Positions 22,676 through 45,873 of a DNA stretch of 46,171 nt are shown here, piece by piece. The translations under genes were made by a program, and so were the position numbers. How positions within the stretch are numbered: position 1 is the first letter of the stretch; each line of letters begins with the position of its first letter. The notes under the pieces were generated by a model that was given only the letters and a program-made list of their open reading frames with translations, was not told the DNA's origin and searched no databases. The stretch is from Saccharicrinis aurantiacus (lineage in GTDB: Bacteria > Bacteroidota > Bacteroidia > Bacteroidales > Marinilabiliaceae), in contig NZ_LYBV02000028.1 of NCBI RefSeq assembly GCF_001660705.2, positions 1-46,171 on the forward strand, written 5' to 3'.

Positions 22676-22760
22676 CGGAGAGAGAGGGATTCGAACCCCC
22701 GGTACCTTGCAGTACAATAGTTTTCAAGACTACCGCATTCGACCACTCTGCCATCTCTCC
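22676..22760 (-). tRNA. tRNA-Ser (UGA)
   Basis: An 85-base cloverleaf with acceptor stem GGAGAGA/TCTCTCC, anticodon loop CTTGAAA giving anticodon UGA, a long variable arm typical of serine tRNAs, T-loop TTCGAAT and discriminator G. The CCA end is not encoded. Its 3' end faces the integrase gene and is the likely attachment site of the island. Confidence 0.95.
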
Positions 22761-22812
22761 AGTGTTGTAATGTAACCTGAAAACGTTTATTCAAGTTTTG
22801 ATTTTAATATTG

Positions 22813-22897
22813 CGGAGAGTGAGGGATTCGAACCCCCGGTACGTTGCCGCACAATAGTTTTCAAGACTACCGCATTCGACCACTCTGCCAACTCTCC
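22813..22897 (-). tRNA. tRNA-Ser (UGA), second copy
   Basis: An 85-base cloverleaf with acceptor stem GGAGAGT/ACTCTCC and the same anticodon loop. It differs from the first copy in the acceptor stem and in the variable arm. The CCA is not encoded. It looks like a tandem duplicate of the neighbouring tRNA-Ser. Confidence 0.95.
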
Positions 22898-22915
22898 AAT
22901 ATTATTTTCACTCTG

Positions 22916-22988
22916 CACGGAATAAGAGACTCGAACTCCTGACACCTGGTTTTGGAGACCAGTGCTCTACCAACTGAGCTAATTCCGT
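22916..22988 (-). tRNA. tRNA-Trp (CCA)
   Basis: A 73-base cloverleaf with acceptor stem ACGGAAT/ATTCCGT, D-arm GCTCAGTTGGTAGAGC, anticodon stem CTGGT/ACCAG with loop CTCCAAA (anticodon CCA) and discriminator G. The CCA end is not encoded. It is the first of the three tRNAs after the promoter. Confidence 0.93.
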
Positions 22989-38909: not shown

Positions 38910-40796
38910 TTATAATACGATGGCTATGCGCATATAAACTTGCCAATTATTATTAATAACACCACTTTTGATACTTGCGTTGTTGTTTATTGTGTACTCG
39001 ATATTGGCATTGTTTAATGGTTCATTAGCTGTTGTTTTAAAAAATACATTTGCTTCTTTAAGGTATAGTGTTTCTTCTGTTTTGTTGGGTGAAAAATATC
39101 CTCCACCAACAGTGAAGTAAAGTATGTTTGTTACTTGAAATAGTACACTAATATTGGCTTGGTATCCATTTTGTTTTAAACCCGTGTAAGCTTTTACATC
39201 ATTTGAATTAAAGGATTTGCCTCCGAACTTAAAATCCTCCACTATTTTACTTTTACCTATATATTGACCATAGTTGAGCCAGCTATATCCTAGCTGAGTA
39301 TCAATAAAAATATTTTTGCCTATTGTTTTAACAGGTAGCCTATAATTGTAGCACAGGCTATAGTTGTTTACAAGTTTATTTTTATCACTGCCAAAGTTGG
39401 AAACATCATCGTAGGTAATTCCATGGTATTTTGTTAGTTTCAGAAGAATAGATGTAGCGAATAGTATGCTGCCAGCAGAGTTGTTAATTTGATTTTCAAA
39501 TTGCAAATTATTGTAGCTTAACTGATGTAAGCCTTTTTGTTTTTGGTAAGCTGAGTAACTAATTCCTGCTGAAAATTCAAAACGTTGCAATACGCTTACT
39601 ACTATACTAGTAAATGTTGGTTTTGGAGCAGGAGCATTAAAAACAGAACTTGTTTGTAGAGTATCTAGTTTTATCACATCAGCCAGTGTCGCGTAATTTT
39701 TCCAGTCGCTATTTGCATAGTTTGTTGCTTCAACGCTCGGAATGTATGAAATGGGTACTTGTTGATCGTATTTGATTTTTTGAGCAATGTTTACTTGTAC
39801 TGAACTCACCACTGCATCGGCAAATGTGGTGTAAATTGAATCATTATTTCTCTTTACAGATTCTTCATGGTGTATTGATTGAAAATAAGCAACGGAATCT
39901 TTTATGGTATAATTAATGGTAGATTCGATGCCCAGACACTTGTAACCAGGTCTTTGAGTATAACGTTTCTTTTCTCGATAATTGGTAGAATGTGTCTCTA
40001 TTTTTATGTAAGCCAATGTTTGTGCATCAATATAAAAGCGACCGTAGTTCTTTTTGATTCTATTGGGTTTAGGCGTAAATCCTATAATGTATACATCTCT
40101 ACCATTGTATTTATCAATGCCAATTAGCTCGTAGTTGTAACTATTGTGCGGCTTTAAAAAGTCAGTGCGTGCTTTTACATCATCTGACGAATGCGTTAAA
40201 TGGATGCCCCCATAATAAACCAGTTTAAACTCTTTAGCTCTTTTAGTATTGTTGTACTTGCGCGATTGGTGCACCTCAATGGTGCCATCCTGATTATTTT
40301 TGTATGATGATTTATAGGCAGTGCCCAATATCTCGGTTAATCGCAAATAATTGGCATTGCTATCCTTTAATCCTTCGCGATAGAAAATTTCATAGGAGCT
40401 AGGTTCTGATGGGTAATTATCGGGTATCTTTTTATAAGCCTTGCGTAAAAAACTACGCAATGTACTATCGGGCATTACCACAACCTCGCCAATGTTGGTA
40501 AAGGATGCTTGCAAGGCAATGTTTGGCTGCTTTAAGAGCTGTTCTTGCTCAATTTCTATGGTTTCGTAACCAATGCAGCTAAAACATAGGGTATAAGTTT
40601 TTTTGCTAGGGATATTAATTTTATAATCGCCATTACTATCCGATACCGTTCCGTTATAGGTTCCTTTTAGGCTTACATTAACAAAGGGAATGGCCTCTTT
40701 GGTTTCCTTATTTGAGATACGCCCTTCAATGGTTTGGGCAGATAAACAAAAGGGTAGGAGTAGAAAGAGAAGTGTGGCTAGTTTATTGAATTGCAT
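38910..40796 (-). CDS. Carboxypeptidase-D regulatory-like domain protein
   Basis: A 628-residue exported protein. The signal peptide ends at LSAQ (about residue 21). An N-terminal carboxypeptidase-regulatory-like domain (IEGRISNKETKEAIPFVNVS, then GTVSDSNGDYKI, about residues 22-105) resembles the start of SusC-type proteins. The remaining 500 residues are beta-rich and probably form an outer-membrane or periplasmic domain of unknown role. Decayed copies of its 5' end lie at 41630-41671 and 42585-42710, so the gene belongs to a locally duplicated family. No TonB box or plug domain is visible. Confidence 0.8.
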   Translation of the reverse strand: MQFNKLATLLFLLLPFCLSAQTIEGRISNKETKEAIPFVNVSLKGTYNGTVSDSNGDYKINIPSKKTYTLCFSCIGYETIEIEQEQLLKQPNIALQASFTNIGEVVVMPDSTLRSFLRKAYKKIPDNYPSEPSSYEIFYREGLKDSNANYLRLTEILGTAYKSSYKNNQDGTIEVHQSRKYNNTKRAKEFKLVYYGGIHLTHSSDDVKARTDFLKPHNSYNYELIGIDKYNGRDVYIIGFTPKPNRIKKNYGRFYIDAQTLAYIKIETHSTNYREKKRYTQRPGYKCLGIESTINYTIKDSVAYFQSIHHEESVKRNNDSIYTTFADAVVSSVQVNIAQKIKYDQQVPISYIPSVEATNYANSDWKNYATLADVIKLDTLQTSSVFNAPAPKPTFTSIVVSVLQRFEFSAGISYSAYQKQKGLHQLSYNNLQFENQINNSAGSILFATSILLKLTKYHGITYDDVSNFGSDKNKLVNNYSLCYNYRLPVKTIGKNIFIDTQLGYSWLNYGQYIGKSKIVEDFKFGGKSFNSNDVKAYTGLKQNGYQANISVLFQVTNILYFTVGGGYFSPNKTEETLYLKEANVFFKTTANEPLNNANIEYTINNNASIKSGVINNNWQVYMRIAIVL

Positions 40797-40851: not shown

Positions 40852-41577
40852 TTAAAGACTACTTATTGCTTCTAATAAATATTCACCTAGGTTCCATACG
40901 TAATCAATTCCAAGATTGGACAGTATATGTATTACTATTGATGCCCATAAACCAATTTTCATTCTAGCGAAACTGAATATTAAAGCGCCTAAAAACTGAA
41001 CTGAAGAGAATGTGGTGGCCATAATGAAAACGAAAACTGAATTTATTTCGAACTCTATGGCGTGAACTAATGAGAATAGAATCGCACTTGTGAAGAAAAT
41101 ATATTTAAAATTTTTAGTCCAAAAAGATTTTAGCAGATCATTAAATTTATGATTTTTATAAGCAAAATAGAATAACGTTGAAACAATCAAAGTAATAACT
41201 ATAGCGGAGACTTTTGCAAGGACATGTTCCATTCCTAAAAAGTGTCGTAAAAATGTTAGTGAAAAAATTAGTATTAAGCACAGCAATAGCGGAGGCGTAT
41301 AGGTGCTATACTTTAAAGGTGCTCTGAATATTATTTCCTCTGCAACTCCTAATATAATAATTTGAAATAGGAGAAAATTTGATTCATTGGAGTTTTGTGA
41401 ATGACCGAATATATCTTGGCTTAATCCTGTTTTTTCAAAGCTAATTCCGATTAGATATGTGATTGCAATGTCTACTAATAGCAAAAATAGAATCCACTTA
41501 ATAACAAGCAATGGTTTTGTGTATTTTGCTATATAATGATGAGGTGATACTATATAATTGGTCAATTCTTTGATCAT
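40852..41577 (-). CDS. CPBP family intramembrane metalloprotease
   Basis: A 241-residue protein with about seven or eight membrane segments. The CPBP (Abi) family motifs are in order: EEIIFR (about residues 79-84), FSLVHA (about 168-173) and HILSNLG (about 217-223), which together form the putative metal site. Related proteins process CAAX-type peptides or give self-immunity to bacteriocins. A short double-glycine-leader peptide gene lies 760 bp upstream on the same strand, so an immunity or processing role is possible. Not proven. Confidence 0.85.
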   Translation of the reverse strand: MIKELTNYIVSPHHYIAKYTKPLLVIKWILFLLLVDIAITYLIGISFEKTGLSQDIFGHSQNSNESNFLLFQIIILGVAEEIIFRAPLKYSTYTPPLLLCLILIFSLTFLRHFLGMEHVLAKVSAIVITLIVSTLFYFAYKNHKFNDLLKSFWTKNFKYIFFTSAILFSLVHAIEFEINSVFVFIMATTFSSVQFLGALIFSFARMKIGLWASIVIHILSNLGIDYVWNLGEYLLEAISSL

Positions 41578-42336: not shown

Positions 42337-42462
42337 TTATGCAAAGTAATCCCATACAGCATCTACTATCTTATGAACCCAAGCTGGGGCAGACCCTCCA
42401 TCAATAAGTGTTAATTCATTAGATTTGATTTCTGTTACGTTTAAATCATTTAAATTTTGCAT
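42337..42462 (-). CDS. Double-glycine-leader peptide (bacteriocin/pheromone-like precursor)
   Basis: A 41-residue peptide. Residues 1-23, with MQNLNDLNVTEIKSNELTLI followed by DGG, form a classic double-glycine leader, with Glu at -8, Leu at -7, Ile at -4 and Gly-Gly at -2/-1. This matches ComC/class II bacteriocin leaders. The mature part would be 18 residues, SAPAWVHKIVDAVWDYFA, a short amphipathic helix with two Trp. A terminator-like hairpin follows. The leader implies export and cleavage by a peptidase-containing ABC transporter, which is not in this window; the ABC ATPase encoded upstream has no peptidase domain. The function could be a bacteriocin, a signal or a modified peptide. Confidence 0.75.
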   Translation of the reverse strand: MQNLNDLNVTEIKSNELTLIDGGSAPAWVHKIVDAVWDYFA

Positions 42463-42584
42463 TTTCTTAAGATTAAATATTAATAATAGTGCTTTACTAT
42501 TTTGGCCAAATTTTAAAGCTTTGCGATAATAATATATTATCTGTCCATAAGAATGGACAATGTTGGAAATAATCTTATGGTTAA

Positions 42585-42710
42585 CTAATAGATAATAAAA
42601 GGGGTATCTAGTTTTGTTTCATTGTTTGTAATGTGTCCTTGAATGCTCTGGGCAGATAAACAAAAGGGTAGTATTAAGAGTAGGAGAGTTGTTAGTTTGT
42701 CGTAATTCAT
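42585..42710 (-). pseudogene. Truncated 5' copy of the 38910-type gene
   Basis: ATG 42710 opens a 41-codon frame, MNYDKLTTLLLLILPFCLSA, followed by QSIQGHITNNETKLDTPF and a stop at 42585. It aligns to the first 38 residues of the 38910..40796 protein (MQFNKLATLLFLLLPFCLSA, QTIEGRISNKETKEAIPF) and then breaks off. It lies between the ABC ATPase gene and the double-glycine peptide gene. Confidence 0.8.
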
Positions 42711-42756: not shown

Positions 42757-43428
42757 TTATAAATAGTTTTTAATATGATCTGTAATTTCAGTAAACGACG
42801 CGTTGATATCATCCTCAATTAAATGGAAATTATTTTTCTGATATGAATTTGAAATGACACTATTATTGAGGTAGAATATTTTGTCGCATGTATTGGTAAG
42901 TTGCGATGTAATGTGAGATGATATAATTATGGTGTCGTATTGTTTCTTTAATAGAAACATTAGTTCTGAACAAATGTGTTGCGCTTCAATATCTAATCCA
43001 TTAAAGGGTTCGTCTAAGAGTAATATATCAGCACTGGATAGATAGAAGCTAAGTAAAGCGAGCTTTTGTTTCATACCAGTAGAATAATTGGCCGCATATT
43101 TTTTTAGTGGCAACTTTAAAAAGGAATTTAAGTGCTCTAATTTGGTGTAATCTACCTTTTGTTTTTTTGCGCCACATATAAACTCAATATACTCAATGCC
43201 CCTAATGCGCGGGTAGAAATATAAGTTAGAGGGCAAATAAGAAATGGATGAAGATCTATTTATTATTCCTTCATATTTTTCGGTGCCAAAAATGCAGTTA
43301 AACAAAGTGGATTTGCCAGCTCCATTTTTTCCTATTATGCCGTTAATACCCTTGCTAAAGCTGTGCGAAAAGTTATCGAATACAGCGCAGTTGTTGTACT
43401 TTTTCGATAGTTTATTAATCTCTACCAT
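42757..43428 (-). CDS. ABC transporter ATP-binding protein
   Basis: A 223-residue ABC ATPase. The Walker A is GKNGAGKST (33-41), the signature is YSTGMKQK in place of LSGGQ, and the Walker B is ILLLDEPFNGLD. A switch histidine region follows (IIISSHIT). It is short and has no membrane or peptidase domain, so it needs a partner; the gene overlaps by seven bases the end of the upstream membrane-protein gene (43422..44363), the likely permease. This pairing resembles CcmA/YhaQ-type exporters or self-protection transporters. The substrate is unknown. Confidence 0.93.
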   Translation of the reverse strand: MVEINKLSKKYNNCAVFDNFSHSFSKGINGIIGKNGAGKSTLFNCIFGTEKYEGIINRSSSISYLPSNLYFYPRIRGIEYIEFICGAKKQKVDYTKLEHLNSFLKLPLKKYAANYSTGMKQKLALLSFYLSSADILLLDEPFNGLDIEAQHICSELMFLLKKQYDTIIISSHITSQLTNTCDKIFYLNNSVISNSYQKNNFHLIEDDINASFTEITDHIKNYL

Positions 43429-44394: not shown

Positions 44395-45873
44395 TTATTG
44401 CATACTCAATTCTGTATAAAGTTTATTGGCATCGCTAACAATTTCTTTATCAAGTTTATGTATCTCAGCAAGTTTAATGGCATTTTTAGGCATTAAATTT
44501 CCCTTTTGTATTTTGTAATCGAAAAAGTAATTGTTGCTATCGTACTTCATCTCAAAATAGTAATTCTCAAAATCATTCAGCAAATTAACCAATTTAATAT
44601 CGTGGGTTGAGGCAAATGTGTTTGCAGCAGTTTTGCTTAAGTGTTTTAATACACTGCATCCCATGGCAACCTGTTCGTTACGGTTGGTGCCTTTAAAAAT
44701 TTCATCTATAATAACTAAGCCAGGTTTCTTTTTACAACTAGCAATAATGTGTTTAATTCTATTTAGTTCGCTTGAGTAATAGCTTTCTCCCTCAGCTAAA
44801 CTATCCGAAATGCTAATGTATGAATAAACAGGTACTTTAGGTACAATAGCGTGCGTGGCAAAGCAAAGGTTTAGCTTCTGTGCTAGGTAGATATTAATAG
44901 CCAATTGTTTCAAGAAAATGGTTTTGCCACTCATGTTAGCCCCCGTAATCAATACTCTACCATTCTCGGAATAAATAGAGTTGGTAACGCAGTTTTCTAT
45001 TAAAGGAAGATAGGCATCTTTTAAATCAATTTTACTTTTATCAGTAAATTGTGGTTTACATGTATTGTAACATTCCTCAATAGAGGAAAGGGATAGAAGC
45101 ATATCGATGTAGCCTATGTAATTGTATTGATCTAACAATAATTTGTTGTTGTCTTGTATTTTGCTGATGCAATACCAATACGAATAGAACTCGATATTTG
45201 TAATTAGTTTAAGCGTTTCAATTATGGTTCCTGTAATGGGTTCTTTGCCTGCAGAATTATTAAAATCTTGAAAGAATAGTGCTGTTGAAATACTTAAATT
45301 CGGTGCGCTATCAGATTTAATACCTTTTAGATCTGATTTTATTTGATGGATATGTTTGGCTATTTTAATAAACTTTCGAAGTGCCGAGAGGCCAAACATA
45401 TGATATAATAGTTCCCTTTTACTCCAAATATATATGATAGTATTGCAGCAAAGTGCAGCGGGGATGCTTAAAATTAATAGGTTATTCTGGAGTATGCCTA
45501 CAAATCCAATAGCGTATAATAATATTGGTACTATGGCCAATATTTTAATCCATTTGGGGAGTTCGAGTTTGGCGTGTAATAAATCAATTACATGTGAATC
45601 TCTATAGGTATTGGCTTTCTGTAATAAGTTATCGAGCTTTGGCGTTCTCAGATTTTCAATCTTACGCTGATCTTCCTCAATCATACCTGTATCAATAAAG
45701 TAATTGGTAGTAAGCAGGTAATTGTATAAGAACTGAGCGCCGTAAGCCGATTGTGTTTTATTTATTTTGGCGAATACTTCTTCAATATTTAAATCGTTAT
45801 TTATATCAGTTTCAAAGTTGCTGAGAGGTTTTGAATAATTGAAGAGTTTAGAGTTTGTATGATCGTTTAGCAT
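44395..45873 (-). CDS. Membrane-associated MutS-like ATPase
   Basis: A 492-residue protein. The C-terminal 190 residues are a MutS domain V ATPase: LITGANMSGKT (Walker A at about 308-318), DSLAEGESYYSSELNRIKHI, VIIDEIFKGTNRNEQVAMG (Walker B) and FASTHDIKLV. The N-terminal half has no mismatch-binding domain. Instead it has MutS-III-like helices and two membrane segments (about residues 108-125 and 128-148). It is therefore not a canonical MutS; similar proteins are common in Bacteroidota but uncharacterised. It starts the operon with the permease and ABC ATPase genes. Confidence 0.88.
   Translation of the reverse strand: MLNDHTNSKLFNYSKPLSNFETDINNDLNIEEVFAKINKTQSAYGAQFLYNYLLTTNYFIDTGMIEEDQRKIENLRTPKLDNLLQKANTYRDSHVIDLLHAKLELPKWIKILAIVPILLYAIGFVGILQNNLLILSIPAALCCNTIIYIWSKRELLYHMFGLSALRKFIKIAKHIHQIKSDLKGIKSDSAPNLSISTALFFQDFNNSAGKEPITGTIIETLKLITNIEFYSYWYCISKIQDNNKLLLDQYNYIGYIDMLLSLSSIEECYNTCKPQFTDKSKIDLKDAYLPLIENCVTNSIYSENGRVLITGANMSGKTIFLKQLAINIYLAQKLNLCFATHAIVPKVPVYSYISISDSLAEGESYYSSELNRIKHIIASCKKKPGLVIIDEIFKGTNRNEQVAMGCSVLKHLSKTAANTFASTHDIKLVNLLNDFENYYFEMKYDSNNYFFDYKIQKGNLMPKNAIKLAEIHKLDKEIVSDANKLYTELSMQ

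Follow-up and report, generated by a model that had tools for sequence, protein, structure and literature searches.

Does a 41-codon open frame in intergenic DNA encode a genuine double-glycine (GG) leader peptide, and, if so, how did it come to lie apart from the C39-peptidase exporter that accompanies such genes in relatives? The window analysed here, 46,171 nucleotides long, constitutes the entire contig C21 of the 5.88-Mb genome of Saccharicrinis aurantiacus, assembled in 69 contigs. The initial annotation had pointed to a minus-strand frame with Glu -8, Leu -7, Ile -4 and Gly-Gly in the leader and an 18-residue Trp-containing core, and we found all of these features as described. The gene and its two parts are:

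42337..42462, minus strand: gene of the 41-aa GG-leader precursor, MQNLNDLNVTEIKSNELTLIDGG followed by SAPAWVHKIVDAVWDYFA; coordinates include the stop codon; recognised by profile match and leader model
42394..42462, minus strand: leader MQNLNDLNVTEIKSNELTLIDGG, 23 residues; 3.8e-11 with profile A3, 17.7 bits with a window-free model
42340..42393, minus strand: core SAPAWVHKIVDAVWDYFA, 18 residues, predicted amphipathic helix, about -1.5 net charge at pH 7, no Cys

The leader residues (Glu -8, Leu -7, Ile -4 and Gly-Gly at -2/-1) reproduce the pattern of C39-matured peptides, i.e., hydrophobic positions -4 and -7, an acidic residue at -8 and Gly-Gly at -2/-1. Profile A3 holds the leaders of the window, G019, G016, G006 and Aureibacter, and its value for MQNLNDLNVTEIKSNELTLIDGG therefore includes a match to itself, while the 17.7-bit model excludes the window. 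The core SAPAWVHKIVDAVWDYFA contains two Trp, has an average mass of 2075.3 Da and is amphipathic (permutation P 0.0025), and the helix proposed for it agrees with the AlphaFold2 single-sequence model, which predicts with moderate confidence one helix at residues 27-40 of the precursor (mean pLDDT 69.9).

The leader model was built from 37 relatives' leaders out of 40 candidate rows, with the window left out and three rows removed beforehand (two Cys-rich peptides of L136 and one spurious frame of L122). With this model the window frame scored 17.7 bits, as against 3.3 for the runner-up frame of the window and 12.1 for the highest-scoring of 278,929 frames drawn from 5.88 Mb of simulated sequence, a control of window-like composition rather than a real genome. 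The simulated DNA contained six motif-bearing short ATG frames (the 46-kb window contains one), which, together with the shortness of the gene and the AT-rich DNA ahead of it (22% GC), speaks for a chance open frame in intergenic DNA; yet this frame exceeds every simulated one, its similarity to the family spans the whole leader and its gene neighbourhood is common to the relatives' loci, so that we regard a chance origin as highly improbable. The relatives come from searches that started from the leader of the window, which is part of alignments A1 and A3, and their leader likeness is thus partly built in; their position beside exporters and their neighbour genes are not, and provide independent evidence. 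Judged from its sequence, the frame is a genuine GG-leader prepeptide gene of a class-II-like system. Promoter-like sites number 5, compared with 3.3 (sd 1.8) in shuffles, and no terminators were found in the same scan.

The lactobin A/cerein 7B family of class IIb (TIGR03949) has a GG leader of the same shape. One of seven relatives' peptides tested (L065:9362-9568) passes its cut-off (24.6 vs 21.5 bits), and the Aureibacter pAT1 peptides, whose leader is similar, are annotated as this family; the window peptide, however, gives no match up to E 1 and is single and short, with no partner peptide seen. Its sole NCBIfam match, over residues 13-40 (E 3.6e-4), is with lactococcin G-beta/enterocin 1071B (NF038034), at 20.7 bits against a cut-off of 37 and with no alpha partner seen, and it scores 13.2 bits with Bacteriocin_IIc (PF10439; gathering cut-off 27.1). 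Neither PDB (up to E 10) nor PADLOC yielded anything for it. According to Coyne et al. 2019 (PMC6671954), bacteroidetocins possess a leader of 15-16 aa and at least two Cys, with a TM protein (mostly a thiol oxidoreductase) and an exporter alongside, and in 45.7% of bacteroidetocin regions the peptide was unannotated; the window peptide, with its 23-aa leader, no Cys and no C39 exporter in the window, falls outside that description. On plasmid pAT1 of Aureibacter tunicatorum (L047:5923-8471), 15 annotated tandem copies, mostly 174 bp apart, encode nearly identical 39-40-aa GG-leader peptides.

No second GG leader was found in the window's own genome by protein and profile searches. A DNA pattern scan of that genome, restricted to Asp/Asn at -3, returned 29 places, among them a short frame at L039 with a formal motif fit and just three residues after Gly-Gly, which was rejected; the places other than this one and the window frame lie within long frames or lack a start and were likewise rejected.

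The search of related genomes that had been suggested for this leader did return homologues. Among 71 genomes of the family Marinilabiliaceae, to which the genus Carboxylicivirga belongs, profile A3 has matches in 20 at E <= 0.1 and, at E <= 1e-3, 28 leader matches in 15 genomes. All 15 leader genomes contain a C39 match, compared with 25 of the 56 others (Fisher 4.4e-5, kinship not corrected). The same leader precedes varied cores, 18 to 49 residues long once a spurious row is excluded, and often adjoins a C39-peptidase ABC exporter, HlyD and winged-HTH proteins, as well as accessory genes like those around the window peptide. A C39 gene is found within 10 kb of 20 of the 28 leaders; the window leader is one of the eight without. 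The seven further leaders more than 10 kb from any C39 match include three on one 4.2-kb contig; as for the genomes with such leaders, G019 and G068 hold the usual exporter elsewhere and G072 a 50% homologue. Conservation at the codon level stands in part: compared with 22 equal-length relatives' leaders, the window leader shows 0.37, 0.25 and 0.54 differences per site at first, second and third codon positions, a pattern that is partly built in, as those leaders were chosen by protein likeness, and that covers the leader, not the core. No core orthologue was found.

The neighbours of the peptide gene are:

44395..45873, minus strand: MutS-family-like ATPase, with homologues in L061, L062 and L128
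43422..44363, minus strand: putative ABC permease, no Pfam match; relatives in 2 other of 71 genomes at E <= 1e-5
42757..43428, minus strand: ABC ATPase (PF00005, 6.8e-17), with homologues in L061 (60%, leader broken) and L121 (47%)
42585..42710, minus strand: truncated copy of CarbD, 41 aa, 61.5% to CarbD, E 3e-7
40852..41577, minus strand: CPBP (Rce1-like) intramembrane protease-like protein, below both curated cut-offs
38910..40796, minus strand: CarbD, a CarboxypepD_reg_2 protein of 628 aa with a possible C-terminal beta-barrel (by eye)

An ATPase and a permease, the latter putative, do lie upstream of the peptide on the same strand, as had been claimed, with the CPBP-like protein downstream. 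The nearby CPBP-type protease holds as a like protein, its Pfam Rce1-like score of 20.6 bits falling just under the cut-off of 22.4; CPBP proteins above the Pfam cut-off are encoded in the relatives' loci L061, L066 and L131. The truncated CarbD copy, which the initial annotation did not mention, sits between the ABC ATPase and the peptide, with the junction to the peptide's upstream stretch just behind it, so the peptide gene has this copy on one side and CPBP and the full CarbD on the other. PADLOC matches of the ABC ATPase appear to reflect general ATPase likeness and were set aside. Elsewhere in the window, three tRNA genes stand in a row at 22676-22988 of the minus strand (Rfam, gathering scores).

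CarbD, CPBP, ATPase, permease and MutS-like genes recur in the relatives' leader loci. In many relatives we found a fuller cluster, which consists of an HTH protein, HlyD, the C39 ABC exporter, often a second HTH and one to several GG peptides, followed by one or more of CarbD, CPBP, the MutS-like ATPase and the ABC ATPase with its permease, the parts varying by locus. The layout closest to the window is L121 of G031, with HlyD, exporter, an HTH protein with a GG tail (HTH-GG), a 52-aa GG peptide, permease and ATPase. The permease is rare, being present in 3 of 71 genomes including the window's, and the other two copies adjoin one GG-leader gene and one broken leader. Full-length CarbD (>200 bits) was detected at 12 places in the 71 genomes, 11 of them outside the window. 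At six of these 11 it stands beside a GG leader and a C39 exporter (G003, G007, G013, G016, G023 and G070, with the G003 exporter and the G070 CarbD each read in two frames), at one beside a broken leader (G005), at one beside an HTH-GG gene and a 48-aa HlyD-like stub (the second place in G003) and at three alone (G001, G004 and G008). The G003 exporter, at L064:6732-8889, consists of two adjoining open frames and may be broken.

The congener G005 (L061) carries the window's whole accessory set of CarbD, ATPase, permease, MutS-like and CPBP genes. Its leader is frameshifted and without Gly-Gly, on account of which we dropped it as a working gene, and its genome (90% complete, 310 contigs) has no C39 match. 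In G001, CarbD adjoins the same two following genes as in G005 (judged by eye, probably aspartokinase and the gene beside it), and the intervening segment is absent. L152:5157-8869 and L061:1-8460 seem to be one chromosomal site in two congeners, without and with the ATPase-permease-MutS-leader-CPBP segment beside CarbD, respectively.

No C39 match lies in the 46-kb window, in agreement with the initial annotation; both C39 matches of the genome are on contig C33. That the processing enzyme would be elsewhere holds insofar as the genome has one C39 ABC exporter (C33:108094-110271), located on that other contig beside a C39-VKOR-thioredoxin protein; that it would be a fitting enzyme found no support, since it is of the VKOR-linked kind, with 31% identity to the exporter accompanying these peptides in G016. 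The region C33:105595-110271 (L004, L005) encodes, in all, the C39-VKOR-thioredoxin protein, a 240-aa HlyD-like protein and the C39 ABC exporter. No peptide cargo was recognised near this exporter, the two small GG ORFs returned by pattern there being unconvincing.

Maturation in trans is possible, and we give some, rather low, credence to a working small bacteriocin or pheromone that would be processed and exported by the VKOR-linked exporter on C33. The C39 domain of this exporter is complete (117 bits), with Cys, His and Asp motifs recognisable by eye, and both the leader and the amphipathic core of the window peptide are intact. Moreover, in the congener G006 an exporter of the VKOR kind (43%) lies near a 123-aa protein with MTLIGGAAPPAWLYRLIV and no Cys, which resembles LTLIDGGSAPAWVHKIV, although this likeness is weak (E 0.13). 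The low identity to the usual exporter and the short HlyD-like partner argue against trans export, as does the Cys-rich nature of the GG peptides that accompany such exporters in G015 and G016; the window peptide has no Cys.

ABC transporter and CPBP genes are associated with bacteriocin self-protection, and both kinds of neighbour suit that role better than signalling. The earlier proposal of a small bacteriocin or signal of marine Bacteroidota stands as far as the GG-leader gene, the marine family and the bacteriocin-like setting are concerned; the peptide may be a bacteriocin, a signal or no longer made. If it were a pheromone, sensed by the HTH proteins of the family, the 18 residues and mild negative charge of the core would be in keeping with that role, as would the HTH proteins near many of the relatives' exporters; as the two HTH homologues of this genome lack a GG tail and lie on other contigs, we consider a signal unlikely.

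In the fuller clusters, C39 exporters are adjoined by winged-HTH proteins, about 110 aa long, whose C-terminus consists of a GG-leader-like motif and a short tail (L062:9035-9370, L063:5722-6066, L065:9829-10140 and others). Among 83 HTH matches with E below 1e-8, 28 of the 38 that extend into the GG tail (position 91 or further) are located at most 10 kb from a C39 match, against 18 of the 45 shorter ones (Fisher 0.002; tails not checked singly, kinship not corrected). The model of one HTH-GG protein shows a winged HTH whose tail is of low confidence (mean pLDDT 67.6). The same clusters possess a three-hairpin element, with 26 matches in 13 of 71 genomes (e.g., L125:9228-9320 and L062:9444-9541). 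It lies within 25 nt of a listed leader in 21 cases, mostly ending at the base before the start codon, and four of the five other copies are within 400 bp of an HTH gene. In the model, built from 14 of those copies, 5 of 21 pairs are changed on both sides, and the covariation score is above all 500 shuffles, with relatedness not excluded. In Rfam, four relative loci match no family at gathering score, with a single sub-gathering match to a microRNA model. Among titles and abstract openings, the literature returned nothing on HTH proteins with GG tails, on these clusters or on the cis-element. The novelty lies more in this wider system, with its GG-tailed HTH proteins and covarying three-hairpin element, than in the window peptide.

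Neither an HTH-GG gene nor the three-hairpin element was found in the window, the latter giving no match at E <= 1 in a search of 29 sources, in which G005 (L061) gave a weak one (22.2 bits, E 0.097). In the rest of the genome we found no HTH-GG gene, the two HTH homologues there being 77 and 75 aa long, and no three-hairpin element at E <= 0.01, under filter settings by which weak matches are lost. It is conceivable, at a low probability, that the window peptide strayed as a cassette from a system not yet described, in which HTH-GG regulators beside the C39 exporter would act on three-hairpin elements before peptide genes, the cut and exported regulator tail would report the state of the exporter to transcription, and the repeated elements would allow cassette exchange.

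The DNA directly upstream of the peptide gene bears on its history:

42493..42577, minus strand: upstream stretch, 72% over 85 bp to congener G007 (L063 9426-9508)
42491..42559, minus strand: three short hairpins (42542-42559, 42525-42541 and 42491-42519)

Its counterpart in G007 lies where the C39 exporter gene ends, ahead of a GG peptide, and the stretch may be a trace of an exporter locus; at 43.7 bits, the likeness was reached by none of 500 shuffles, but the best of them came close at 41.9, so that it is no more than suggestive. The fold of 42463-42602 has a z-score of -3.34, with 1 of 200 shuffles as stable, compared with -0.20 to -1.70 for four relatives' stretches in the same analysis. 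The locus looks like the rearranged remainder of a larger cluster.

We favour, as probable, the explanation that a genuine GG-leader prepeptide gene, once part of a Marinilabiliaceae secretion system of the class II bacteriocin kind, was orphaned by rearrangement. In the full system, as we infer from the gene content of relatives, the C39 domain of the peptidase-ABC exporter would bind the leader and cut after Gly-Gly, the core would then leave through the exporter and HlyD, and self-protection would come from the ABC ATPase/permease and the CPBP protein nearby. A deletion that began inside CarbD and stopped where an exporter gene ends would have produced the present gene order. The absence of a usual-kind exporter from the assembly, the truncated CarbD at the junction and the G007-like upstream DNA speak for orphaning, as does the parallel of G005, where accessory genes of the same kinds accompany a frameshifted leader in a genome that gave no C39 match. 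Against orphaning, the peptide frame itself is intact, the upstream likeness is barely above shuffles and tblastn revealed no exporter coding remnant in the window, its sole strong match being the ABC ATPase. Furthermore, since seven other leaders lie over 10 kb from a C39 match, remoteness alone does not mean loss, and, as the window is a whole contig of a 69-contig assembly, the exporter could sit in a gap. As the searches of this genome yielded neither a dedicated exporter nor an HTH-GG gene or three-hairpin element, the 18-residue peptide would mature only if the C33 exporter accepts it; otherwise the gene would be heading to decay, as in G005.

With 41 codons, the gene is short enough for annotation to overlook. 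It extends a GG-leader family of varied cores in marine Bacteroidota, and its study revealed fuller clusters with regulators and a cis-element. The orphan or solo remnants in G005, G001, G004, G008 and the window form a natural series on how such clusters break down and which genes stay.
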